From the NCBI RefSeq assembly GCF_009707365.1, contig NZ_CP046122.1, positions 1,922,001-1,986,000 of the forward strand: 64,000 bases of DNA, read 5' to 3'. Positions 1 to 11,860 of the stretch are shown here, in pieces (the first letter of the stretch is position 1; the number at the start of each line of letters is the position of its first letter). The translations under genes and the position numbers were made by a program. The notes under the pieces were generated by a model. It saw only the letters and a list, made by a program, of their open reading frames with translations, was not told the origin of the DNA and made no database searches. This stretch comes from Microlunatus sp. Gsoil 973. Lineage in GTDB: Bacteria; Actinomycetota; Actinomycetes; Propionibacteriales; Propionibacteriaceae.

Positions 1-1
1 C

Positions 2-1060
2 CTGAACACCGAGGTCCCACCGGGAGCGACGCCGCTGCTGGTGCACAGCCGGGCGTACCTGGACGTACTGCACAACTCTCGTTATCTGATCAACAACAAC
101 AACTTCCCGTTCTACTTCCGCAAGCGGCCCGGCCAGGTCTACGTGCAGACCTGGCACGGAACGCCGCTGAAGAAGATCGGCAACGATGTGCCCGGGGCGA
201 ACCTGTCGCTCTCCTATCGGGAGCTGATGAGACGCGAACCGGGATATTGGGACGTGCTGCTGGCCCAGAACGATTTCGCCGCCCGGGTGCTGCCCGAGGC
301 GTTCGGTTACCACGGACCTACGTTGAACGTCGGCTATCCCCGCAACGACGTGCTGACCGGACCGGCGTCCCACCAGCGGCGCGCCACGGTGCGGGCGAGG
401 CTGGGCCTTGCCGATGATCAACCGGTCGCGCTGTATGCACCGACCTGGCGGGACAACGTCTCGGTGGCGACCGGCTACGCGATGGTGTCGCATCTGGACT
501 TCGCCCGCGCCCGCGCCGCGCTGGGCCGCAATTCCACGATCCTGCTGCGCGGTCACGCCAACACCGCACATGACCGGATGGATTCCGAGCCGGGCGTGAT
601 CAACGTGACCGAGCATCCCGATGTCAACGACTTGATCCTGGCATCGGATCTGTTGATCACCGACTATTCGTCGATCATGTTCGACTACTGCGTCACCGGA
701 AAGCCGATCCTCTTCCTGACACCGGATCTTGATCAGTACCGCACGGTGACCCGGGGCTTCTATCTCGATCTGGAGGAGGTCGCGCCCGGGCCGGTCTGTC
801 CGGACAACGACACCCTCGCCGAGGCTCTCGGTGATCTTGCAGCCACCAAGATCAACTATGCCGATCGGTATGCGCGGTTCGTCTCGACCTATGCACCGCG
901 GGATGACGGCTCGGCCGCCGCGCGCGTGGTCGATGCGCTCTTCGGTGAAGGTCTGTCATCCGACGGGCCGGCGGACGACGCAATGCTTTCTGCTCTGGAT
1001 CAGAACGAGGATCACAGCGACTTCGGCAGCCGCCCACGAGACGGCGCGGCGCGGGATTAG
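2..1060 (+). CDS. CDP-glycerol glycerophosphotransferase family protein (TagF-like), 5' end missing
   Basis: The reading frame is open from the first bases of the window, so the true start lies upstream and 353 codons are visible. The protein has the TagF/TarF-type signature NNNNFP followed by GQVYVQTWHGTPLK near its visible N-terminus, and near the C-terminus the nucleotide-binding block ITDYSSIMFDYCVTGKPI. Enzymes of this family transfer glycerol phosphate or ribitol phosphate from CDP-activated donors to build teichoic-acid-like polymers at the inner face of the membrane. It opens a run of sugar-modifying genes, which supports a role in a phosphate-linked wall polymer. An internal GTG at 41 is not believed to be the real start because the family continues upstream. 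Family assignment is firm; the polyol transferred is not known. Confidence 0.88.
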   Translation: MNTEVPPGATPLLVHSRAYLDVLHNSRYLINNNNFPFYFRKRPGQVYVQTWHGTPLKKIGNDVPGANLSLSYRELMRREPGYWDVLLAQNDFAARVLPEAFGYHGPTLNVGYPRNDVLTGPASHQRRATVRARLGLADDQPVALYAPTWRDNVSVATGYAMVSHLDFARARAALGRNSTILLRGHANTAHDRMDSEPGVINVTEHPDVNDLILASDLLITDYSSIMFDYCVTGKPILFLTPDLDQYRTVTRGFYLDLEEVAPGPVCPDNDTLAEALGDLAATKINYADRYARFVSTYAPRDDGSAAARVVDALFGEGLSSDGPADDAMLSALDQNEDHSDFGSRPRDGAARD

Positions 1061-1061
1061 G

Positions 1062-1067
1062 TACGGT
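1062..1067 (+). promoter_or_regulatory. -10 box TACGGT for a leaderless start at 1074
   Basis: TACGGT fits the actinobacterial TANNNT -10 consensus. It ends 6 nt before the GTG at 1074, so transcription would begin at or next to the start codon. No Shine-Dalgarno sequence is present. Confidence 0.45.
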
Positions 1068-1073
1068 TGCGGC

Positions 1074-2435
1074 GTGTTGGATCCCGAAACCGCAGACGCC
1101 CTGTTGCTTCCGCCGCGGACCCGGTTGCTGCACATCGGCCCGATGAAGACCGGGACGACCTCGCTACAACTGGCGGCTCACCGACGGCGCGAGGTGTTGC
1201 TCGCGAACGGGGTCCGGTATCCCGGCACCGCGCCCAACCACCGCCGGCCACTTGGGGCCTTGATGGAGTGGAGCGTGAATACCTGGAACCGGGCGCGGCC
1301 CTTGGGACCAGATCGGCTGGACGTCGACAGAACGGGCATTCCAGCGCGGGAGGAATGGGAAAGGCTCAAGGAGGAGATCGACGCTGAGATCGAGCGTCGA
1401 ATCTTCATCACTCACGAATTCGTGAGCCAGGTCGACGACGCGACCGCCCAACGGATCATCGATGCGATCGGTGACCCGACCCATGTCTGCATCACCTTAC
1501 GGGCCCCTGGGCGGATCGTTCCGTCGCTGTGGGCGCAGAGTGTTCGGGATGATGCGCAGACAGAACCGTTCGAGAGTTGGCTTGGCCGGTACTTCGGCAA
1601 GGATTCAGAGCATCCGCTGCCCGAGCGGCATCGGCGCGCCTACGATCAGGGCCAGCTGGTCAGCCGCTGGGCCAGTCTTATCGGACCGGAGAACGTCACG
1701 GTGATCGTCGTGGACCGGTCGGACCCCGATCTGTTGGCAAGCGCCGTCGAGGCGATGCTCGGCCTACCTCACGAGACCCTTAGTTGGAAGCGCAGTAACG
1801 ATTCATTGACCGCAACTGACGCCGAATTGTTCCGCCACGTGAACGTTATCCTTCGCGATCGGAAGGCAACGTGGTCAACATTTCACAACCTCGTTTGGCA
1901 GGGAGCCATCAAGCTTGGACCAGAACAACGTTCGGTCTCGCCGAACGAGCCGCGTGTGCTTCTGCCACCCTGGGCCGCCGAGATCGCCGACCGGGACGGA
2001 GCCAGGTTTGCTGAGCACATCCGCGGGACTGCGGTTCGGGTTGTCGGCGATCTCGACAATTTGGCGGTCAAGTCACCTACTGCACCGTGGCGGTCGATCG
2101 AGGAGATCCCGGTCAACATCGCAGCCGAGGCCGTCGCCGGCGCGGTCCTCGCAGGCCAGAGGGCGCGCCGCGACGCAAGGAAGGAACTTGACAAACAGGC
2201 AGCCGAACTCGAGCAACTCCAGACAGAGTTGGCCGAGTTGACCGCCGAGCGTGATCAACTCGTCGAACGGGAGAGATCCGCGGCGTCGTCGCTAGCGCTC
2301 AGTTCGGCCGCCGCGGAGCGTGCCGAACGGCCGGCGGCGATGTTCGGCGCTCACCAGCTCGCCGCCGGACTGAAGCGTCGACTGTTGCGCCGGGTGCGTA
2401 CTCACCGTTCCCATCCGCTGGACAAGGCGCGCTGA
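1074..2435 (+). CDS. Sulfotransferase-like protein with C-terminal coiled coil
   Basis: The 453-residue protein begins with LHIGPMKTGTTSLQ at about residues 18-31, which matches the 5'-phosphosulfate-binding loop (PKTGTT) of PAPS-dependent sulfotransferases. A later segment (ITLRAPGRIVPSLWAQ) fits the 3'-phosphate-binding region. Residues about 360-410 form a charged coiled coil rich in Glu, Leu and Gln, and the extreme C-terminus is strongly basic. The likely role is sulfation, or another group transfer, on a cell-surface glycan made by the neighbouring enzymes. GTG 1074 is chosen because a TANNNT box lies 6 nt upstream and the upstream codons look non-coding; ATG 1143 would cut the nucleotide loop. 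Stf0-like or heparan-type subfamily is not resolved. Confidence 0.7.
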   Translation: MLDPETADALLLPPRTRLLHIGPMKTGTTSLQLAAHRRREVLLANGVRYPGTAPNHRRPLGALMEWSVNTWNRARPLGPDRLDVDRTGIPAREEWERLKEEIDAEIERRIFITHEFVSQVDDATAQRIIDAIGDPTHVCITLRAPGRIVPSLWAQSVRDDAQTEPFESWLGRYFGKDSEHPLPERHRRAYDQGQLVSRWASLIGPENVTVIVVDRSDPDLLASAVEAMLGLPHETLSWKRSNDSLTATDAELFRHVNVILRDRKATWSTFHNLVWQGAIKLGPEQRSVSPNEPRVLLPPWAAEIADRDGARFAEHIRGTAVRVVGDLDNLAVKSPTAPWRSIEEIPVNIAAEAVAGAVLAGQRARRDARKELDKQAAELEQLQTELAELTAERDQLVERERSAASSLALSSAAAERAERPAAMFGAHQLAAGLKRRLLRRVRTHRSHPLDKAR

Positions 2436-2445
2436 TCCAGTCAGC
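2431..2445. terminator. Short inverted repeat over two convergent stop codons
   Basis: GCTGA-TCCAG-TCAGC forms a 5-bp stem with a 5-nt loop. It contains the TGA of the sulfotransferase gene and the TGA (read as TCA) of the GT61 gene. Three of the five pairs follow automatically from two facing TGA codons, so support is weak alone. Confidence 0.25.
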
Positions 2446-4276
2446 CCCTGGTGCCGACGAGCAGTCTGTCCAGCTCTGTGCCCAGGCGCGAGAAGTCGAA
2501 CGTCCAGTTCGACTTGTACGCTTCGCGGGACCAACCTTCCTCAGGCTGCTGTATCTCCGGGACGTTCCACAGGTAGTGAATGTCGGCGCCCAGCGCGAGC
2601 GCGATCAGGTGCTCGTTCCGGGCGGTGTACGCCTCCTGGTTGAGGACGATCATCTGCTCCAGATTCTCGGCGAACAGGGTGTTGAACATGGCACTCCCGC
2701 CGAATCCCGCGACAATCCGGGCATGCTCCAGCATCCCGGCCTGGTGCCGCAACGGATAGTCCTCCGGATAGACGATCTCGAAACCTTCCGCCGCGAACCG
2801 CTCCTCCACCGCAACCCGGTTGAGACAGCGGCGGTTTCCCAACGTGTCGCGACGCGACAGGAAGACGCGGTCGAATTGTGGCGCTCCGGAGCGGTCCAAT
2901 CCGTCCCGCAGTCGGCGCCACACCGTCCGGATCTGTGGATGGACGTAATGCGGCATCGCATTGTGGAACATCGGCGTCGCACCGTAGGCGGTCTGCAGAT
3001 ACACCGGATGGTCAACCCAGACGATGTCGTCGGGTTGGATTCCGTACGCCGTGAACACAGTCTGCTCGAGTTCGGGGTTCCGTTCGTTGACGTGGCGCAA
3101 CCGGAAGATGACCTTCAGGTCCGGATTCTCCTCCTTTGCCCGCGGCCAGCCCCACAACCGGGAGATGACCTCGGTCATCAGGTGCCCGAAATGTCCGGAA
3201 TTCTCCGAATCCAGCAGGTAGAAGGCGCCGTCAATGGTCTCCTGCGGGCGAACATGCTCGTCGAGACGGGCGAAACTCTCGTCGACATTGACCATCCGCG
3301 GGTTCCGGAGGTCGCCGGCCAGATGGTGTCTGAACGAGTCTGGGAGGATCTCGTTGTCTGTGAAGACGAGGCTGTTGCTGACGAAACCGATCCGCCCGCG
3401 ATACTCGCGCAGATGCATGGGCGGATACTTGACCGCCGGGTCGAGGCCGACGAGTTCTCGGGTCGCCCCGATCGAGTCGACCTGTCCCGATGATGTCAGC
3501 TCGCCGCGGGAGAGAAGTTCGAGCTGACGGACGGCGACATTGTGATTCCGACTACCGAGCATCCGATTGGTCGATCGGTCGGACAGCTTCAGGTAGTGCC
3601 GGCCGCGCTTGCCGATCCTGATGAAGTCGCGGTCGACCGTCACCGAACTCGTCGCCCACAGCAACTCGTCGTAATCCTGGGCCGATGCTGCCTGTTTGCC
3701 GTCGGCCAGCCCGGCGAGCATCGTGGCCAGGCAGCGTCCGAGGTCACGACCCTGGGTGTACCCGGTGATCTTGGCCATGGGAATCACGTAGCTGCCGCCG
3801 GGAGCGAGATGGAACAACAGTTGCCGCAGCGCGGCCTCATGTTTCGCCGAGGTCCCACGTCGGACGTACACGATGACGTCGACCGGTCCGTGCAGCTTGA
3901 GATGCCACCTGACGTTGGAATGCTGATCGAGCTTGTGGTAGCGGCGCTGCTCTCCGTCCAAACCCCACTCGACCTGGGGCTCGGGGGCGACAACATGCAG
4001 CTCGTCGTCCCAGTACGGCTCCAGATACGGGCGAAGCGCACCGGGCGGCATCCTGTCGGCAATCACGAACACCTTCCGGCGACCCTCGCTGTCCGGGTGC
4101 CGGCCGGCCCGCGGCCCGGCAATTCGCCGAGCCAGGCCCAGGGAGCGTCGGGCAGTCGTTCCGACCGATTTCCCGACCATTCCCAGACCGGATCTCCCGC
4201 CGAGCTTCTCAACTGCCAATCGGATTGCGCGTTCGGCGCCGCCCGGCGAATTGTTCATATCCACGGTTTCCGGCAT
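2441..4276 (-). CDS. GT61 family (DUF563) glycosyltransferase with N-terminal Rossmann-like region
   Basis: The 611-residue protein has a C-terminal GT61 domain (about residues 300-590). It includes a DSENSGHFGHLMTEVISRLW block, VFLSRRDTLGNRRC, and the late FGGSAMFNTLFA and NEHLIALAL segments typical of the family. GT61 enzymes transfer sugars such as xylose or GlcNAc to glycans; bacterial members act on envelope polysaccharides. About residues 60-200 read VDVIVYVRRG...LLFHLAPGGSYVIPMA, resembling the late strands of a SAM-methyltransferase Rossmann fold but without an obvious GxGxG loop. ATG 4276 is chosen because GGAGG lies upstream (about 12 nt); ATG 4258 has no ribosome site. A paralogue lies at 17089-18867. 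The acceptor is unknown. Confidence 0.8.
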   Translation of the reverse strand: MPETVDMNNSPGGAERAIRLAVEKLGGRSGLGMVGKSVGTTARRSLGLARRIAGPRAGRHPDSEGRRKVFVIADRMPPGALRPYLEPYWDDELHVVAPEPQVEWGLDGEQRRYHKLDQHSNVRWHLKLHGPVDVIVYVRRGTSAKHEAALRQLLFHLAPGGSYVIPMAKITGYTQGRDLGRCLATMLAGLADGKQAASAQDYDELLWATSSVTVDRDFIRIGKRGRHYLKLSDRSTNRMLGSRNHNVAVRQLELLSRGELTSSGQVDSIGATRELVGLDPAVKYPPMHLREYRGRIGFVSNSLVFTDNEILPDSFRHHLAGDLRNPRMVNVDESFARLDEHVRPQETIDGAFYLLDSENSGHFGHLMTEVISRLWGWPRAKEENPDLKVIFRLRHVNERNPELEQTVFTAYGIQPDDIVWVDHPVYLQTAYGATPMFHNAMPHYVHPQIRTVWRRLRDGLDRSGAPQFDRVFLSRRDTLGNRRCLNRVAVEERFAAEGFEIVYPEDYPLRHQAGMLEHARIVAGFGGSAMFNTLFAENLEQMIVLNQEAYTARNEHLIALALGADIHYLWNVPEIQQPEEGWSREAYKSNWTFDFSRLGTELDRLLVGTRG

Positions 4277-4428
4277 GCGTACGTGGTTCCTCCGAGAACT
4301 GTCTCCCAGTAACTGTCCGACCCATGAACCCGGGCGGAAACCCATCCTGACAGATGATCTCATTCCGGCAGGGGCCCGACGCGATTGTCAATCGTGCAAG
4401 TTGCCGACCGGGACAATCATCCGGCCAA

Positions 4429-6795
4429 TCAGTCGTGCAACGCCCACGGCCAGTCATAGAACGGATCCGGCGTAGACCAGCCGTCCCCGTAGCGGTCTGC
4501 CAGGAACGCCTCCGGGTCCGCCGGGACGAGCACCTCACGACCCAGGAAGGTGAACGGTTTGGGCGGCAGGACGACGTCGGTGGCGATGTCTCGCAGCCGC
4601 ATCTTCTCCATGTGCAGGCTGGACCTCTCACCGTCGACCAACAGCGGGAAGACATCGACGTGCAGGCCGGTCTCCGGCTCGCCGAGATGGAAGTTGGTGT
4701 ACGAGTTGGGCCGGGACACCCGCCACCCCTTGGACCGGAGCTGCTCGGCGAGTGGAGCCAGGACCTTCTCCACCTCGTCCCGGTTCGCTGCCGGGATCGG
4801 GATCAACATGTCCACGTCGTCATCGTGGGCCAGGAAGTTGCCCTCCCGCACCGCGCCGAGCAGCGTGCCGTAGGCGATCATGGCCGGATACCCGCACTCG
4901 TCGAGCAGCGCCGTGGCGCGCAGGATGAGGCCGACGTAATCGTCGGCGCGTTGCTGCAGGATCCCGATGTCGGTGAACCCGTGCCGGGTGAGGACGGCGC
5001 GCGGGGAGCCGAGGACCTCGCCTGCCCGGTTCACCTCCGACTCCAGCCGGCGGAGTTTGGCGCGCGAATCCAGCACCCGATGGAAGGCGGCCATCGACGT
5101 CTTGCTCGACGGCACCCGCGCGCGTTCGGCAGCCAGCAGGTGCCCCAGCAGGGTCCACTCGTCGTCGGACAGCGACTGCCCCTCCGGCAGTCGGCGTCGT
5201 GGGATCAACGAGCTGAGCAACCGCTGCTCCTCCCTGTCGGCGGTCAGCAGTCCTGACAGGGTGCGCTCCGCCAGGTCGGCCAGCAATTCCTCCCGCAGCC
5301 GGATGGCTTCGGATTGCGAGGCCAGAACCGACAGGTCGAGATCTCGACCGGTGATCCGATGCAGCAGGTCGAGCGTGGCCTCGACGGCGCGGTCGGAGTC
5401 CACCGACCTGATGGTCTCGAAGTAGCCGTCGGGACCGGCAGCCGCCACGGTCAGCGAACTTGCCCGGACACCCCAGCCGTCGAGTCGGTTGTAGATCCGG
5501 ACCTCGTCCGCGTCGACCGGCGGGTCGAAGGTCACCGCCCACCAGGGCGCCGTCTGTTTCTCGGTCCGGATCCCGCCGAACGCGAATGGGCTGCGGCGGG
5601 CACCGGGACGGCGCGCGTCCGAGCTTTGCGCTGTCGAGATGTTCGACTCATCGACTCCAACGCGCCGTCCGTTGCGGTACATCTCGAGCCCACGCAGATC
5701 CAGCTGCGCCTCGGCCTCGGTGAGGAACAGGCGGAGCCGTGAAACCGGTCGGGGCACCTTGACCGAGAAGTAGTTCGCGGCGATCCCGCCGAAATAGCCC
5801 AGCGACGGCACCAGCACGGCGGTTCCGTCCTTGTTCCGCAGACTGTCCCCCGGTTCTCGGGTCGGTATCGAACTCGGGCCCGCTCTGTGCGCGCCCTTGC
5901 GGCGCAGGAAGGGCGCAGCGTCGAGCAGGCAGCGGTGGTCGAAGGTGATCGGTTCGTCGGTGAAGGACAACTCTGCGAGTAGGTCGACAGTCACCGGCCG
6001 GTCGGCCAGATCCAGTTTCTGTGGCTGGCGGAACTTGTTCACCGACGCGAAGTAGTCATAGAACTGGAACACCCCGCCCCGGGGAGACGACGACGCCAGC
6101 CAGGCGCTGGGGATGCCGTACGCATCCGCGAGCGTCAGAGCGCGCAGCGACGAACTGACGATCCTCCGGCAGGACAGCACGTCGTCGATCACTCCCTCCA
6201 CGTCGCCGCGGGAACAGTCGATCAGTTTGACGTCCGGACCGTAGGTCGCCTCGGCCCAGGCCCGTTCGCTCCATCGCACGACCACGCCGTACTCATCGGT
6301 GACCGGGACCTCCGGCTGATAGTAGAGCGGCACCAGCAGGGTCGGGTCGCCGTACACCTCAGGCACCGGGATGCCGAAGCCCTTGGCTGCGCTCAGTTTG
6401 GCCTGGGTGAGCGGCCCGCGGACCGCAGTGAAGCGGGCGTTCGCGGGCACCTCCCGCTTGGCCTCGGTGCCGTAGGCGCCGGTCCCCCAGAAGATCGACA
6501 GGTCGGTTCCCTGGCTGATGATCGACCCGATGGCCACGTAGTGCGGCTTGTCACGATCAGCGACGACCACCTCGCGCCCGGTCATCTTCGAAACCAGCCA
6601 CGGCGACAACAGGTCACCGAAGTTCGCCGAGAAGGTGAAGTAGTTGACCGGGACTTTGCCGTCGACCTCGAGCAGGCCGGCGACCTGATAGTCGTTGACC
6701 AGCGACCTGAGCGGGTCCTGGCCGGAATCGGAGCCGCCCGACCTCGCTCTGGCGACTCTGGCGAGCTGGCTCCGGACAACACGCCCCAACGGCAT
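4429..6795 (-). CDS. Polysaccharide pyruvyltransferase-like / beta-sandwich / LicD fusion protein
   Basis: This 788-residue protein joins three parts. Residues about 45-300 match polysaccharide pyruvyltransferases (NFGDLLSPWL at 58-67, FTAVRGPLT at 122-130, EVYGDPTLLVP) and align closely with the stand-alone enzyme at 9729-10712. Residues about 325-470 look like a discoidin-type beta-sandwich (FGGIRTEKQTAPWWAVTFDPP, then VRIYNRLDGWGVRASSL). Residues about 600-788 are a LicD/fukutin nucleotidyltransferase-fold domain with GTLLGAVREGNF and the metal-binding DDDVD at 658-662; LicD enzymes transfer phosphocholine or similar phosphodiester groups to glycans. The usual His of the pyruvyltransferase SLHG motif is Arg218 here. 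The start is fixed by GGGGGA 6 nt before ATG 6795. Domain calls 1 and 3 are firm; the middle one is inferred. Confidence 0.82.
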   Translation of the reverse strand: MPLGRVVRSQLARVARARSGGSDSGQDPLRSLVNDYQVAGLLEVDGKVPVNYFTFSANFGDLLSPWLVSKMTGREVVVADRDKPHYVAIGSIISQGTDLSIFWGTGAYGTEAKREVPANARFTAVRGPLTQAKLSAAKGFGIPVPEVYGDPTLLVPLYYQPEVPVTDEYGVVVRWSERAWAEATYGPDVKLIDCSRGDVEGVIDDVLSCRRIVSSSLRALTLADAYGIPSAWLASSSPRGGVFQFYDYFASVNKFRQPQKLDLADRPVTVDLLAELSFTDEPITFDHRCLLDAAPFLRRKGAHRAGPSSIPTREPGDSLRNKDGTAVLVPSLGYFGGIAANYFSVKVPRPVSRLRLFLTEAEAQLDLRGLEMYRNGRRVGVDESNISTAQSSDARRPGARRSPFAFGGIRTEKQTAPWWAVTFDPPVDADEVRIYNRLDGWGVRASSLTVAAAGPDGYFETIRSVDSDRAVEATLDLLHRITGRDLDLSVLASQSEAIRLREELLADLAERTLSGLLTADREEQRLLSSLIPRRRLPEGQSLSDDEWTLLGHLLAAERARVPSSKTSMAAFHRVLDSRAKLRRLESEVNRAGEVLGSPRAVLTRHGFTDIGILQQRADDYVGLILRATALLDECGYPAMIAYGTLLGAVREGNFLAHDDDVDMLIPIPAANRDEVEKVLAPLAEQLRSKGWRVSRPNSYTNFHLGEPETGLHVDVFPLLVDGERSSLHMEKMRLRDIATDVVLPPKPFTFLGREVLVPADPEAFLADRYGDGWSTPDPFYDWPWALHD

Positions 6796-6990: not shown

Positions 6991-8889
6991 ATGGACGACA
7001 CGGATTCGGTATCGGTGCTGATCAGATCGGGCAACCTCGGCGACCGACTCCCACGGCTCGTCGGGACGCTGGACGACCAGAGTCTGCCCTACGGCCGCTA
7101 CGAGGTGATCTTCCTTGATGCGGGTTCGTCCGACGGCACGTCCGCCCGGATCCGGCAACTGGTCGACCGGCGGCCGAATGTGCATCTGATCGAGTCGGAT
7201 GCTGACGGCTGGCGCCCTGCGCTGGAGGCGGCCGCCGGCGAGTTCGTGCTCTGCTTGGGCGACGACGACCGGTTACTCCCCGGCGGCTTGGCGAACCTGC
7301 TGGCAGCGGCTGCGGACAAGGACGTCGTGTTAGCAGGTGGTGGCGACGCCGGACCGGTGGGTTTTCTCCCCGACAGCATCGAGGCGACCGGGGTCACCTC
7401 GGCGACCGAGCCGCTATCCGGCATCAGGGCCATCACTCCCTTCGCGCTCATCCGCCGCGAACTGCTACTGGGAATGGGGTCGGACCTGCCGGCCGCGGAC
7501 GACTTCCGCCGGACCAGGGTCGGACTGTTGGCGTCATCGGCAACCATCGGCACCTGCGGCACACCAGTCGGTCTCGGCTCAGGCCCGCCCTCGGGGACGT
7601 CCGCCGAACGAATTCTCGCCGATGCCTCCGGGGCAGCGGAGTTGTTGGGTGATTCCGACAGCGCGGCCTGGCTCGTGGCCGCCCATGCCGCCGCGCTGCT
7701 CGACCAGCCGTCGACGTCACTCACTCCTGAGGTGGAAGGACAGCTCACCGAGCTGGTCCAGCGACATTGGAAGGACCGGGATCCCGCGCCGCTGCCTCCG
7801 CTGTACCGAGCCCTGGTGCAGGCAGCGGTCGACGGAATCCCGGCGTCGGCAGCAGGACTGTTGAACATCGCTGAGCTTTCTCCCGCTGTCGAATCGGCAA
7901 CGGCGGAGTGGTCGGACGGCAGGCTCAGGCTGGCGGTAACAGGGACGGTTCCTGCCCCGTCGACCAGCCCGGTGCTGGTACCGGACCACCGGCCCGTTCG
8001 GCTGACGGTGCGGAACGTGAACACCGGGATCCGCTACGACCTCGCTACCGAGGTCACGATCGAGGCGATCGAGGGATCCACCGGGTTCGTCGCGCGCGCT
8101 GTGGTGGACGTCGCGGAGGCGGCAGCCGGAGAACCGTTGACCGAAGGCGTCTGGCAGGTACTGGTTCGGCTGGTCGGAACCGGATCCCGCTCCGCGGTCA
8201 CCGTCGCTGTGCCCGCCTGCACAGTGCCGGGCGGCGTCGTCGACGGCATCCCGATCGGTGTCTTCGCCGCCGACGGTCAGCTGCGTCTGGACGTCGGGGC
8301 CCGACAACACGGCCTGTTGGGCGCGCCGTTCACCCCTGACCGGGCCACGATCACCGAATCGGCCCGGGGTGCGCTGCTCAGCATCGCCGACCCGAACCTC
8401 GTGGTCCGCGGAGACGCCGCACTTCCGGCCGCCCTGTTCCTGGGCTCCTTCCGGCTGCCTGCAGTGCTGCGTTCCGCCGAATCCGGGGTACGCCTGGAGT
8501 GTTACGTCAGCGGTCTGGCCGGCGTGTCGAAACTCCAAGCGCAGGTCGGTCGGGCCCAGCGGCAGCCCCTCGGTCTGCAGCTGCGGATCACTGCCATCGG
8601 GGAGATGTCGATCGAACCTGCCGCGCCGGATCGGCCCGCAGCAAAGCGGTCGGCTGCCAAGAGACCGGCCGGCAAGCAATCACCTGTCAAGAAGCCGGGC
8701 GCCCCGAAACCGGCTGCCCGAAAGCCAACCGCCAAGAACTCGGCCCGCCACCAGAAGAACCCAGTGAAGCAGCAGCGGAACCGCCGCATCGTGGATCGGG
8801 TTCCCGGTCCGTTGCGCCCCGTGGCCCGCTCAGCGGCGCGATCACCCGTCCTGCAACGGGCGTACCGGCAGCTCAGGCGTCTGATCTGA
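6991..8889 (+). CDS. GT2-type glycosyltransferase with beta-rich C-terminal half and lysine-rich tail
   Basis: The 632-residue protein has an N-terminal GT-A fold: FLDAGSSDG at 41-49 and the metal-binding LGDDDR at 89-94 (DxD type). The GT core is short, ending near residue 200. Residues about 300-530 are strand-rich with no recognised catalytic motif, similar in general layout to the linker and C-terminal beta domains of wall-teichoic-acid GlcNAc transferases (inference). Residues about 545-600 are a Lys/Ala/Pro repeat tail like histone H1, followed by an amphipathic basic end (LQRAYRQLRRLI). The tail probably binds membrane or polyanionic polymer. GGAG lies just before ATG 6991. The gene is divergent from the LicD fusion; the 195-bp gap between them shows no strong promoter. 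Confidence 0.7.
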   Translation: MDDTDSVSVLIRSGNLGDRLPRLVGTLDDQSLPYGRYEVIFLDAGSSDGTSARIRQLVDRRPNVHLIESDADGWRPALEAAAGEFVLCLGDDDRLLPGGLANLLAAAADKDVVLAGGGDAGPVGFLPDSIEATGVTSATEPLSGIRAITPFALIRRELLLGMGSDLPAADDFRRTRVGLLASSATIGTCGTPVGLGSGPPSGTSAERILADASGAAELLGDSDSAAWLVAAHAAALLDQPSTSLTPEVEGQLTELVQRHWKDRDPAPLPPLYRALVQAAVDGIPASAAGLLNIAELSPAVESATAEWSDGRLRLAVTGTVPAPSTSPVLVPDHRPVRLTVRNVNTGIRYDLATEVTIEAIEGSTGFVARAVVDVAEAAAGEPLTEGVWQVLVRLVGTGSRSAVTVAVPACTVPGGVVDGIPIGVFAADGQLRLDVGARQHGLLGAPFTPDRATITESARGALLSIADPNLVVRGDAALPAALFLGSFRLPAVLRSAESGVRLECYVSGLAGVSKLQAQVGRAQRQPLGLQLRITAIGEMSIEPAAPDRPAAKRSAAKRPAGKQSPVKKPGAPKPAARKPTAKNSARHQKNPVKQQRNRRIVDRVPGPLRPVARSAARSPVLQRAYRQLRRLI

Positions 8890-8933: not shown

Positions 8934-9719
8934 ATGTACTTCTACTACCGCAGATTTCTGACCCAGGTCCACCAGCGCCTGCGTCCTCGCAACTACCTGG
9001 AGATAGGAGTCCGCAACGGCGGCAGCCTCGCGCTGTCCCGCTGCAGGTCGGTGGCGATCGATCCGGCGTACTCGATCACGGCCGAACTCAACGCACCCGT
9101 TTCGTTGTTCCGAACCTCCAGTGACGAGTACTTCGCCCGAGCGGATCCGCTTCAGCCGACCGACGGGCAGCCGTTCGATCTCACGTTCATCGACGGGCTG
9201 CACCTCTTCGAGTTCGCGCTCCGCGACTTCATCAACGCGGAACGACACTCCAGCAACCGTGGCGTGATCATCTTCGACGACGTCCTGCCCCGCACCGTCG
9301 ACGAGGCGGCCAGGGTGCGACACACCCATGCCTGGACCGGCGATGTGTATTCGGTTCTCGGCGTGATCGCCAAGTACCGCCCCGAACTGTCGGTGATCAC
9401 CATCGGAACACAGCCGACCGGCCTGTTGATGATCACCGGACTGGATCCCACCAGCACCGTGCTGACTGATCACTACCACGAGATCCTGCGCGAGTTCCGG
9501 CACGCGGACCCGCAGCCGGTTCCCGAGCACCTGCTTGATCGGCTGGCCATCGCTCCGCCGCAGAAGGTGTTGGACTCCGGACTCCTGGAATTGCTCGGCA
9601 ACGCCGATCCGGCCACGTCGTCGGCCGACCTCAGGCAACAGATCGCCGACGTCGTGTCAGCGAACGTCGGTCGGGCGTACGCACCGGGCGAGCCCGTTGG
9701 AGCTACGTTCGAAGGCTGA
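8934..9719 (+). CDS. Class I SAM-dependent methyltransferase (Methyltransf_24-like)
   Basis: The 261-residue protein has YLEIGVRNGGS at about residues 22-32 (SAM-binding motif I), AIDP for the second strand, and FDLTFIDGLHLFEFALRDF at about 81-99, typical of sugar or polysaccharide O-methyltransferases of the Methyltransf_24 group. GVIIFDDVLPR follows. It is 44 nt downstream of the GT2 gene on the same strand and probably shares its transcript, so methylation of the same glycan is the simplest role. A GAGGAC sequence precedes ATG 8934. It ends 9 nt from the convergent pyruvyltransferase gene, with CTGA and TCAG facing each other in the gap. The target hydroxyl is unknown. Confidence 0.75.
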   Translation: MYFYYRRFLTQVHQRLRPRNYLEIGVRNGGSLALSRCRSVAIDPAYSITAELNAPVSLFRTSSDEYFARADPLQPTDGQPFDLTFIDGLHLFEFALRDFINAERHSSNRGVIIFDDVLPRTVDEAARVRHTHAWTGDVYSVLGVIAKYRPELSVITIGTQPTGLLMITGLDPTSTVLTDHYHEILREFRHADPQPVPEHLLDRLAIAPPQKVLDSGLLELLGNADPATSSADLRQQIADVVSANVGRAYAPGEPVGATFEG

Positions 9720-9728
9720 TCCTCAGAG

Positions 9729-10712
9729 TCAGGAACTGGTCGCCGGCCGGGGCTCCGACCGGGAGCGCCCCTTGCGGCGCAGGAACGGCGCCGCGTCGAG
9801 CAGCGCCCGGTAGTCGAAGTCGATCGATTCTTCACTGAAGGCGAACGACGTGCGCAACCGCTCGGCGGTGACCGGTCGATCCGAGGGATCGAACCTCTGC
9901 GGCTGCCGGAACTTGTTCACCGATGCGAAGTAGTCGTAGTACTTGAAGACCCCTCCGCGCGGCGAACTCGAGGCCAGCCAGGCGTTGGGGATGCCGTAGG
10001 CATCGGCGACGATCAGCCCGTGCAGGGACGAGGTGATGATCTTCCGGCAGGAGAGCAGTTCCCGGACGACCGCTTCGACATCTGAACGGGAGAAGTCGAT
10101 CAGCTTGACACCCGGTCCGTAGGTGCCGTTCGCCCATTTCCGCTCGCTCCACCGCACCACGACGCCGTACTCGTGGGTGACCGGCACCTCGGGTCGGTAG
10201 TAGAGCGGTAGCAACAACGCGGGGTCGCCGTACACCTCGGGAACCGGAATCCCGAAACCCCGTGCCGCGCTGAGCTTGGCCCTGGTCAGCGGACCCCGGA
10301 CCGCGGTGAAGCTGGCGTTCTTGGCGACCTCGTCCTCCCTCTCGGTACCGTAGACGCCCGCTCCCCAAACGATCGACTGGTCGGTGCTCTGACTGACGAT
10401 CGATCCGATGACCAGGTAATGCGGATTCTTCCGGTTCGCGACGATCGCCGGCCTGCCGGTCATCTGCTCGATCAGCCAAGGAGACAGCAGGTCACCGAAG
10501 TTCGGTCGGTAGGTGAAGTAGTTCAGTGGGACCCAGCCCCCGACCTCGATCAGGTCGGCTACCTCGTAGTCGTCCAGGACGCTGTGGTGAACCTGCCGCC
10601 GCGGCGCCTTGGCCGGCCGCCCAACCAACCGGGCCGTCGCCAGATCGACAAGGTGGCGGCGCACGGGCCCCGGCTTCAACCGGAGGACATTCAGGTCTTC
10701 CCTATTAGTCAT
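9729..10712 (-). CDS. Polysaccharide pyruvyltransferase family protein
   Basis: The 327-residue protein is the expected length for this family, which transfers pyruvate from phosphoenolpyruvate to form ketals on sugar residues of surface polymers. Visible blocks are NFGDLLSPWL at 71-80, FTAVRGPLTRAK at about 135-146, VPEVYGDPALLLPLYY, and TSSLHGLIVADAYG with His231 in the position of the conserved family histidine. It shares nearly every block with the first domain of the 788-residue fusion at 4429-6795, so the two arose by duplication; here the catalytic-type residues are kept. The C-terminus is basic. No good ribosome site precedes ATG 10712; CATAAT lies 6 nt upstream, so leaderless expression is possible but weakly supported. 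Confidence 0.85.
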   Translation of the reverse strand: MTNREDLNVLRLKPGPVRRHLVDLATARLVGRPAKAPRRQVHHSVLDDYEVADLIEVGGWVPLNYFTYRPNFGDLLSPWLIEQMTGRPAIVANRKNPHYLVIGSIVSQSTDQSIVWGAGVYGTEREDEVAKNASFTAVRGPLTRAKLSAARGFGIPVPEVYGDPALLLPLYYRPEVPVTHEYGVVVRWSERKWANGTYGPGVKLIDFSRSDVEAVVRELLSCRKIITSSLHGLIVADAYGIPNAWLASSSPRGGVFKYYDYFASVNKFRQPQRFDPSDRPVTAERLRTSFAFSEESIDFDYRALLDAAPFLRRKGRSRSEPRPATSS

Positions 10713-10794
10713 ATCGGAATTATGTCACCAACTTCACCGCATCCCGCTGAGTCACGGCTAAGGCTCAATCAATGTGCCGGCCGACGTCGGCGAC

Positions 10795-10800
10795 TACGCT
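10795..10800 (+). promoter_or_regulatory. -10 box TACGCT for a leaderless start at 10808
   Basis: TACGCT matches TANNNT and ends 7 nt before ATG 10808. There is no Shine-Dalgarno sequence. The box supports 10808 as the start rather than the in-frame ATG at 10772. Confidence 0.4.
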
Positions 10801-10807
10801 GGCCGAC

Positions 10808-11860
10808 ATGGGGCTGAATCTGCCCGCCTGGCCCCGGTTCCCGGCGTCACTGGGGGTTCGCCGAAGGCCGCGCGTCTCGGTCGTCGTTCCCGTCTTCAAC
10901 GCGATGCCCTATCTGACCGAACTGCTCAGCTCCTTGGATGACCAGGGACTGTCACCGGCGCAACTGCAGGTCATCCTGGTCGACGACGGCTCGACCGACG
11001 GAAGTCCCGCCGTCCTCGACGATTTCGGCCGCGATCGCCCGAACGTGATCGTGCTGCATCAGGTGAATTCCGGGTGGCCGGGTCAGCCCCGCAACAAGGG
11101 TCTGGAGCATGCGACCGGGCGATGGGTCTTCTTCGCCGACGCCGACGACTACTTCGCATCAGGGGCTCTGGCCGACCTGGCCGACTACGGAGACCGGCAA
11201 CGTACTCAGATCGTGTTACCCCGGGTCAACCGGTTCGGCAACCGAAGCGCCGGCCGTCGTCTGGTCAAGACGAAGGACAGAGTCTCCAAAGAGGTCGCGT
11301 TCCGGTCGTTCACCCCGCACAAGCTCGTGCGGCGGGACCTGATCATGAAGAACGGAGTGCGTTTCCCGGAGGGGAAGGTCCGGTTGGAGGACGGCATCTT
11401 CTTCAGCCGTTGCTTCCTCCTGACGGACCGGATCTCTGCCCTTGCGGATCGGGAGTACTACATGATGCGCGGCCGTACGGACGGCGGCAACATCTCCAGA
11501 CAGCCCAAGGATCCGGCCGGCTACGTGAGTTCTGTCGAGCGGATCGTGCAGACCACCAACGAGCTCTGTGACGACCCCGGACTGCGAAGCAGACTGATCG
11601 CCATCGTGCTGCATCGCAAGTGCCTGAAACTCTATGCCGGCGGATTCGCCCGACTCTCCGATGATCTTCAGCAGCGGTGGCTCACCGAGCATCGCCAGCT
11701 CCTGACCAGGTACATGACTGCAGAGATCAGGGCCGAACTCGCACCGATCGACCAGGATCGGCTCGCTCTGGTACTCACCGGGGACCGATCCCGGATCCTG
11801 GCGCACATCCGCGACAACCGGGTACGACCGGCGGGCCGGACAACTGCTCTGGAGCTGTGA
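10808..11860 (+). CDS. GT2 family glycosyltransferase (TarS/TarP-like GT-A domain)
   Basis: The 349-residue protein has VSVVVPVFNAMPYL near residue 25, VDDGSTDGS near 60, a GWPGQPRNKGLEHATG block, and FFADADDYF near 110 (DxD metal site). A later VRLEDGIFF segment contains the probable catalytic acidic pair. The order and the GQPRNKG motif resemble glycosyltransferases that decorate wall teichoic acid with GlcNAc, but the C-terminal trimerisation part of TarS is absent. ATG 10808 is preferred over 10772 because of the TANNNT box 7 nt before it and the poor conservation expected of the first 12 codons. It points away from the pyruvyltransferase gene, and its 3' end converges on the VWA gene. 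Sugar and acceptor unknown. Confidence 0.82.
   Translation: MGLNLPAWPRFPASLGVRRRPRVSVVVPVFNAMPYLTELLSSLDDQGLSPAQLQVILVDDGSTDGSPAVLDDFGRDRPNVIVLHQVNSGWPGQPRNKGLEHATGRWVFFADADDYFASGALADLADYGDRQRTQIVLPRVNRFGNRSAGRRLVKTKDRVSKEVAFRSFTPHKLVRRDLIMKNGVRFPEGKVRLEDGIFFSRCFLLTDRISALADREYYMMRGRTDGGNISRQPKDPAGYVSSVERIVQTTNELCDDPGLRSRLIAIVLHRKCLKLYAGGFARLSDDLQQRWLTEHRQLLTRYMTAEIRAELAPIDQDRLALVLTGDRSRILAHIRDNRVRPAGRTTALEL

Follow-up and report, generated by a model that had tools for sequence, protein, structure and literature searches.

A fusion of pyruvyltransferase-like, F-type-lectin-like and LicD domains in Microlunatus sp. Gsoil 973 and its possible role in wall-polymer assembly

The fusion protein and its closest described systems

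In the CpsC/Cps7C protein of Actinobacillus pleuropneumoniae, a LicD/FKRP-type catalytic domain lies C-terminally behind another module (PMC11666461). The same placement is found in a 788-residue protein of Microlunatus sp. Gsoil 973, encoded within a 64,000-nucleotide stretch of its genome (NZ_CP046122.1, positions 1,922,001 to 1,986,000; hereafter the window, from whose first nucleotide positions are counted). Unlike Cps7C, in which the N-terminal module is TPR, the Microlunatus protein carries a pyruvyltransferase-like and a lectin-like domain in front of LicD. Cps7C is described as a LicD protein with an FKRP-like domain that acts as a glycerol-phosphate polymerase; its partners are a polymerase of two domains and a small transferase of PF04464, and the Microlunatus locus resembles it in both. 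The partner Cps7D consists of TPR, glycerol-phosphate transferase and GT-B parts, unlike the polymerase here, which has GT2 followed by TagF (PMC11666461).

The catalytic fold of the LicD part is also that of human FKRP, a ribitol-phosphate transferase with a different N-terminal part; unlike the activities of Cps7C and FKRP, the donor of the Microlunatus fusion is only predicted. CsaB and Pvg1p are ketal-pyruvyltransferases of PF04230, the family of polysaccharide pyruvyltransferases. The N-terminal domain of the fusion is PF04230-like but differs from both in being joined to two other domains and in having arginine in place of the key histidine that binds phosphoenolpyruvate (PEP). The middle domain shares the RxDx4R pattern with F-type lectins (FBP32 and the eel agglutinin AAA) and with F5/8C domains; unlike in the lectins, the histidine of the fucose motif is arginine here, and the domain is part of a presumed intracellular enzyme with a conjectural ligand. 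Pyruvate ketals on actinobacterial wall polymers are described in a review chiefly as chemotaxonomic markers with no known functions (PMC6801904).

The fusion gene contains the following features.

4429..6795, minus strand: 788-residue fusion of pyruvyltransferase-like domain, F-type-lectin/F5-8C-like domain, helical linker and LicD (open reading frame list, Pfam, full-length relatives)
5881..6795, minus strand: PF04230-like domain, residues 1-305, probably catalytically dead here (Pfam, residue comparison)
6139..6150, minus strand: SLRA, residues 216-219, against SLHG in close relatives (H218R, G219A; alignment)
6064..6066, minus strand: glutamine at residue 244, against lysine in 20 other full-length close relatives (alignment)
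5356..5808, minus strand: beta-rich F-type lectin / F5-8C-like domain, residues 330-480 (Pfam, AlphaFold, profiles)
5464..5487, minus strand: RLDGWGVR, residues 437-444, the RxDx4R part of the F-type lectin motif (alignment)
5011..5397, minus strand: helical linker, residues 467-595 (AlphaFold)
4432..5010, minus strand: LicD nucleotidyltransferase-fold domain, residues 596-788 (Pfam, AlphaFold, Foldseek, profile)
4810..4824, minus strand: DDDVD, residues 658-662 (motif)
4648-4662, minus strand: HVDVF, residues 712-716 (motif)

The single reading frame exists as originally predicted, on the minus strand, which that prediction left unstated; the domain order proposed there is also right. Identical order is found in Krasilnikoviella flava (L019; 793 residues, 64% identity to the window fusion), Isoptericola sp. 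4D.3 (L020; 794 residues, 66%) and the genome G540 (about 808 residues counted from the aligned methionine, 63%). These full-length relatives share both start and three-part order, which confirms both in the window; since three other genomes have the same order, the fusion is neither a chance nor an assembly product. The three-domain protein is confirmed as real.

The domain identities stand on uneven scores. LicD reaches 38.9 bits at residues 637-722, above its Pfam gathering cut-off of 22.6. PS_pyruv_trans (21.7 bits at residues 101-237, cut-off 25.3) and F5_F8_type_C_2 (17.4 bits at residues 411-485, cut-off 27.8) fall below theirs; in the genome search the former scores 23.7 bits, or 25.3 with its frame neighbours, which was counted as over the cut-off. 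Both weakly scoring domains are supported by homology to better-scoring relatives or profiles. For PS_pyruv_trans, the fused N-terminal part scores 43.6 bits in Krasilnikoviella and 39.7 bits in Isoptericola, and a stand-alone paralogue in the window, 66% identical to the N-terminal part of the fusion, scores 56.4 bits. Neither the fusion nor this paralogue takes an NCBIfam name above cut-off.

The architecture is rare and built from known parts. It is apparently undescribed so far: among the papers listed in the literature searches there was no description of it, and none contradicted the original prediction on this point.

The best explanation, with a probability of roughly 0.55, is a cytoplasmic enzyme of teichoic-acid-like wall-polymer assembly with an attached pseudo-pyruvyltransferase. 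Its LicD domain would take an alditol phosphate, most likely glycerol phosphate, from a CDP donor and attach it to the growing polymer or to the linker of that polymer; the F-type-lectin-like domain would hold the acceptor in a basic pocket. The N-terminal domain would descend from a pyruvyltransferase that ketalised the same polymer in ancestors; in the window, with the PEP-binding histidine gone, it would be a probable pseudoenzyme retained as a fold for docking or acceptor binding. Any pyruvylation would fall to the stand-alone paralogue. The domains, the lost residues, the paralogue and the surrounding genes are observed; donor, acceptor, loss of activity and a retained scaffold role are predictions.

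The LicD domain, polymerase genes and donor supply

The LicD assignment can be regarded as secure. Both acidic motifs, DDDxD and hxDxF, are present in all 12 rows of an alignment of lectin-LicD relatives (A3), and DDDVD lies at residues 658-662 as predicted; among four more distant lectin-LicD genes, the pattern DDD[VI]D is matched in two. In Foldseek, FKRP accounts for 13 of 13 matches of the LicD part at E 0.001 or better (best 5.1e-7), with a TM-score normalised to the target of about 0.3, and a profile search finds FKRP at E 2.7e-8. The most likely activity predicted for this part is the use of a CDP donor to transfer a phospho-group.

The group transferred might be phosphocholine or phosphoethanolamine rather than an alditol phosphate, but this is unlikely. 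LicD1 and LicD2 of pneumococcus are reported to transfer phosphocholine (PMC13385700), and the sole NCBIfam match is the Mf1 cholinephosphotransferase, far below cut-off at 38.9 of 225 bits; the gene neighbours, however, are of the GT2-TagF type.

A GT2-TagF frame of 1155-1380 residues, a teichoic-acid-type polymerase, is found at eight of the nine lectin-LicD loci viewed with flanks. The count covers these nine loci, with L041, L045, L048, L049 and the distant members outside it, and identification is by Pfam on L019, partly so on the window's frame, and by BLAST likeness at the other loci. The frame is immediately upstream of the lectin-LicD gene in L019, L020, G540, G528, G530 and G535, and convergent with it within a few kb in the window and in Microlunatus endophyticus. 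At L022, a short contig of a Nocardioides metagenome-assembled genome (MAG), no GT2-TagF frame lies in the 11.7 kb of sequence covered; the neighbouring genes there encode a protein of poly-A polymerase type and another that ends in a helix-turn-helix. To the left of the window there is a small PF04464 gene, with relatives in M. endophyticus and G528, and another is found in the wider G392 locus.

The evidence on donor supply is less favourable to an enzyme of teichoic-acid type. G528, G530 and G535 each have a TagD family match above cut-off, which in G528 lies at a distance of about 9 kb from the lectin-LicD gene. A TagD-like gene elsewhere on the window's chromosome scores 124.7 bits, below the equivalog cut-off of 165.4, and G004 also has a match below cut-off; the same search finds no match in G392 and G540 and a weak one in G393. 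Matches below the cut-off are only suggestive, because 12 of 14 control genomes match too, two of them above it. The three fusion genomes that lack a strong TagD match (G392, G393 and G540) have in common a MobA/GlmU-like nucleotidyltransferase, which was not found at E 1e-5 in the other five genomes. Given this gene and the scatter of TagD, the activated donor may differ between species; it may be CDP-glycerol in some and another compound in others.

IspD-like matches located 25-29 kb from the lectin-LicD genes in G392, G393, G540, G530 and G535 were considered as TarI and dropped. The two frames scanned (G392 and G540) hold a CMP-nonulosonate-type synthetase fused to NeuB. Each of them (L067:2490-4646 in G392, L068:3453-5939 in G540) combines NeuB with a phosphatase and a CMP-sugar synthetase-like domain in one frame and lies about 25 kb away from the fusion gene; the G392 phosphatase is KdsC-like (NCBIfam). 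Kdn polymers with pyruvate are reported from Promicromonospora (PMC6801904).

The altered pyruvyltransferase-like domain and its paralogue

At residue 218 the fused copy in the window has arginine; in the other aligned PF04230 sequences this residue is histidine, in 50 of 50. The 50 comprise 21 close and 29 distant sequences and were gathered by profile search or by similarity, which favours intact members; the distant ones are all loci fetched in the profile search minus the window's paralogue, with matches lacking a locus outside the set. Three of three further stand-alone copies also have the histidine, and all three other fusions keep His-Gly. The glycine itself varies, being kept in 27 of the 50. 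Compared with 20 full-length close relatives, the window copy differs by R131Q, A152T, H218R, G219A and K244Q; Arg 131 is found in 19 of these 20, and the other four positions are uniform in all of them. The arginine of the AVRG motif is kept (R126), as in 49 of the 50 others with one gap, and by an inferred mapping likely corresponds to R148 of CsaB.

The codons at the His-Gly site are CGC GCT in the fused copy and CAC GGG in the paralogue. Since more than one base differs and other residues have changed as well, a sequencing error is unlikely. In a leave-one-out comparison of 21 rows, 37 columns are invariant without the fused copy, which violates 4 of them; the stand-alone paralogue violates 0 of 33. 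Among the remaining rows, a distant C-terminal domain fares worst (6 of 39). With two distant domains removed (19 rows), the fused copy violates 5 of 65 and the long-branched G311 7 of 67, none at His-Gly. What is peculiar to the window copy is thus the place of the violated columns, not their number.

In CsaB, H308R and H308A are reported to be inactive (PMC10435577), and the pyruvyl part of the window copy is probably a pseudoenzyme. The natural change mirrors the laboratory mutation that kills CsaB, with the intact paralogue as a built-in control. Several observations weigh against this reading. H308K and H308S of CsaB are reported to retain some activity (PMC10435577), so the loss of activity is likely but not certain. 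Position 218 is equated with H308 through the R-x-H positions 306/308 and the family xLH motif within PF04230, in an alignment without CsaB. AlphaFold on the full fusion with 7 sequences (mean pLDDT 56.9) gives usable middle and LicD parts, whereas the N-terminal domain is unusable, with pLDDT mostly below 50. Finally, the LicD half is present without any such N-terminal domain in other species. The only match in a profile search of the PDB with the pyruvyltransferase alignment (A2) was to a ribosomal protein, at E 0.27; pyruvyltransferases were absent.

The intact paralogue sits 2.9 kb from the fusion gene.

9729..10712, minus strand: stand-alone pyruvyltransferase paralogue, 327 residues, SLHG intact (open reading frame list, Pfam, alignment)

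In a pyruvyltransferase tree of 21 chosen rows (the partial row G521 left out), the four fused copies and three stand-alone copies form one clade (100/99) that is unresolved inside. In a lectin-LicD tree of 15 chosen rows (more distant LicD frames left out), the window protein and the M. endophyticus protein are sisters (97/99). The latter is without a pyruvyl domain; the M. endophyticus genome has a stand-alone copy. The stretch DVSPFLRRLMGRRAG in the N-terminus of the M. endophyticus protein aligns to the end of the fused pyruvyl domain of the window (4 of 2000 shuffles as good) and to three other pyruvyl tails (16, 5 and 6 of 2000). In a control, three lectin-LicD proteins without a pyruvyl domain give 637, 31 and 103 of 1000. 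This stretch, of about 15 residues, is possibly a relic of the pyruvyl domain, and we infer that M. endophyticus lost this domain rather than never had it. Each of the two Microlunatus genomes carries a stand-alone copy in which His-Gly is intact. The histidine is kept in the fusions of Isoptericola and G540, which have the fused copy only, and also in that of Krasilnikoviella, which has both copies. Over these five genomes, a small number, the pattern fits loss where a spare copy exists.

The fused domain might merely be decaying after duplication, without a role, in which case its absence from M. endophyticus would be the next step. His-Gly is lost in the window and the domain is absent in M. 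endophyticus, both of which have a stand-alone copy. Of the columns conserved in the seven-member clade, the fused copy violates 25 of 168, against 14 of 157 for the stand-alone copy and 13 of 156 for the M. endophyticus copy, which hints at relaxed constraint. Tajima tests of the fused against the stand-alone copy show no significant rate increase with any of seven outgroups (chi-square 0.02 to 1.81), which counts against plain decay; against the fused copies of G540 and Krasilnikoviella, however, the window copy is the faster in all six tests (1.53 to 3.76), though none exceeds 3.84. The frame has no stops, and dN/dS is well below 1 (0.25 to 0.38 in five fused-copy pairs; computed for 15 of 21 pairs), a rough value because dS is 0.7 to 0.9. 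The rate and dN/dS tests are weak at such distance; on balance, decay without a role is an improbable account.

A true bifunctional enzyme, in which pyruvyl and phosphodiester transfer are both active and arginine stands in for histidine, is more doubtful. Bifunctional members probably exist, because the other three fusions keep His-Gly, and the activity of CsaB H308K (PMC10435577) and the constraint on the reading frame would suit one in the window; the dead H308R mutant (PMC10435577), the three further otherwise invariant residues altered in the window copy and the intact paralogue nearby speak against it.

Middle domain, distribution and neighbouring genes

AlphaFold places beta strands over residues 342-465, with block pLDDT mostly 62-89 and one block at 51. 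The middle domain is therefore beta-rich and not disordered. Modelled in isolation, the domain is also beta-rich (mean pLDDT 73.6). The A3 profile finds the F-type lectin FBP32 at a whole-sequence E of 3.9e-9 (best single stretch 6.9e-5) and eel agglutinin 1k12 at E 1.2e-4, and a profile from a five-sequence alignment (A4) also finds FBP32 best, at E 1e-5 (its best stretch 0.092). The F5/8 type C family matches five of five A4 members at E up to 1 (best 4.8e-5) but stays under its Pfam cut-off (17.4-18.8 against 27.8 bits). Less favourably, Foldseek gave no match at E 0.001 or better for the isolated model, so the fold is supported by sequence and not by structure comparison.

F-type lectins are reported to bind fucose via His52, Arg79 and Arg86, with the motif HX24RXDX4(R/K) (PMC5712786). 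RxDx4R is present in 12 of 12 A3 rows. The full fucose motif is not found in the window's fusion, where R410 lies 27 residues before the first motif arginine and glutamate at 25; 27 residues is the distance from His52 to Arg79 in eel agglutinin. At this position, the A3 rows have arginine in eight cases, threonine or serine in two, histidine in one and cysteine in one, and the pocket triad Arg-Arg-Arg occurs in 8 of the 12. Since the histidine of the fucose motif is mostly replaced, fucose is probably not the ligand; that the ligand is anionic is a guess. Tentatively, the pyruvyltransferase may have turned into a non-catalytic reading or docking module which, with the three-arginine lectin-like pocket, steers phosphodiester transfer to an anionic polymer end. 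M. endophyticus has a second, distant lectin-LicD gene (L021:7587-9089, plus strand) in tandem with the first, with histidine at the F-type-lectin position (row L017).

The original prediction that the lectin domain recognises a pyruvylated sugar, to which LicD then adds a phosphodiester, is not supported and is the least probable reading: the Arg-Arg-Arg triad would suit an acid group, and neighbouring pyruvyltransferase and lectin-LicD genes in G1263 (in the fusion's order) and G1182 would fit, but the fused domain carries an inactivating-type His-to-Arg change, the triad recurs in G528, G530, G535 and the Nocardioides MAG, and these four together with G552 have the lectin-LicD half but nothing that matches the stand-alone pyruvyltransferase at E 1e-4 and hence no sign of a relative of this transferase (the search there did not extend to other PF04230 families, and the MAG is possibly incomplete).

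Genomes were searched with the query P0001 at a threshold of E 1e-30 (1e-3 within the genus), and a fusion was counted when a single frame held both halves. The original expectation of many hits in Propionibacteriales is not borne out, as the fusion is found in only 1 of 391 genomes of this order; within the genus it occurs in 1 of 20 genomes and within the class in 1 of 394, and it is found in 3 of 221 genomes from the family of Isoptericola sp. 4D.3 and in 2 of 396 from the order to which Isoptericola belongs. These genome sets overlap, and the total is four genomes with the fusion. The large searches scored the best two to four candidates per genome, so counts of separate halves are lower bounds.

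The lectin-LicD half is a gene of its own in M. endophyticus, the Nocardioides MAG, G528, G530, G535, G474, G426 and G455, and more distant lectin-LicD genes are found in G1008, G1302, G1182 and G1263; in G552 this half is divided between two frames. A pyruvyltransferase gene is immediately upstream of the lectin-LicD gene in G1263 (same strand, 260-nucleotide gap), while in G1182 the two are neighbours on opposite strands. That the two parts are fused in some genomes and adjacent in others is good evidence for a shared pathway. The four fusion genomes and two with adjacency link the pyruvyltransferase family to one LicD enzyme, and the neighbourhood extends this link to the GT2-TagF polymerase, which gives a concrete polymer system to examine.

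Two long frames with a PF04230 domain at the C-terminus are possible other pyruvyltransferase fusions: L006:1-2301 in G016 (Pfam match) and L029:1-2298 in G136 (alignment only).

The other genes near the fusion in the window are as follows.

1..1060, plus strand: C-terminal end of the GT2-TagF polymerase, 1225 residues, which starts to the left of the window (Pfam)
831..2435, plus strand: 534-residue protein, 66% identical over 378 residues to a 485-residue protein encoded in the neighbourhood of the lectin-LicD gene in M. endophyticus; Pfam finds no family above cut-off
2441..4363, minus strand: GT61 glycosyltransferase; in Krasilnikoviella and G540, relatives also lie near the fusion (Pfam)
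6991..8889, plus strand: GT2 glycosyltransferase with a lysine/proline-rich tail (Pfam)
8934..9719, plus strand: methyltransferase, PF13578 (Pfam)
10772..11860, plus strand: GT2 glycosyltransferase with a TarS linker domain (Pfam)

The tail of the GT2 protein at 6991-8889 (residues 540-605) is rich in lysine, proline and alanine and histone-like, with an HC2 match of 19.1 bits, below the cut-off of 40. To the left of the window lie a kinase of the aminoglycoside/hydroxyurea phosphotransferase family (APH_6_hur; L002:13197-14135, plus strand) and, left of the wall-polymer genes, GH38 and GH95 glycoside hydrolases (L002:6313-13142, plus strand).

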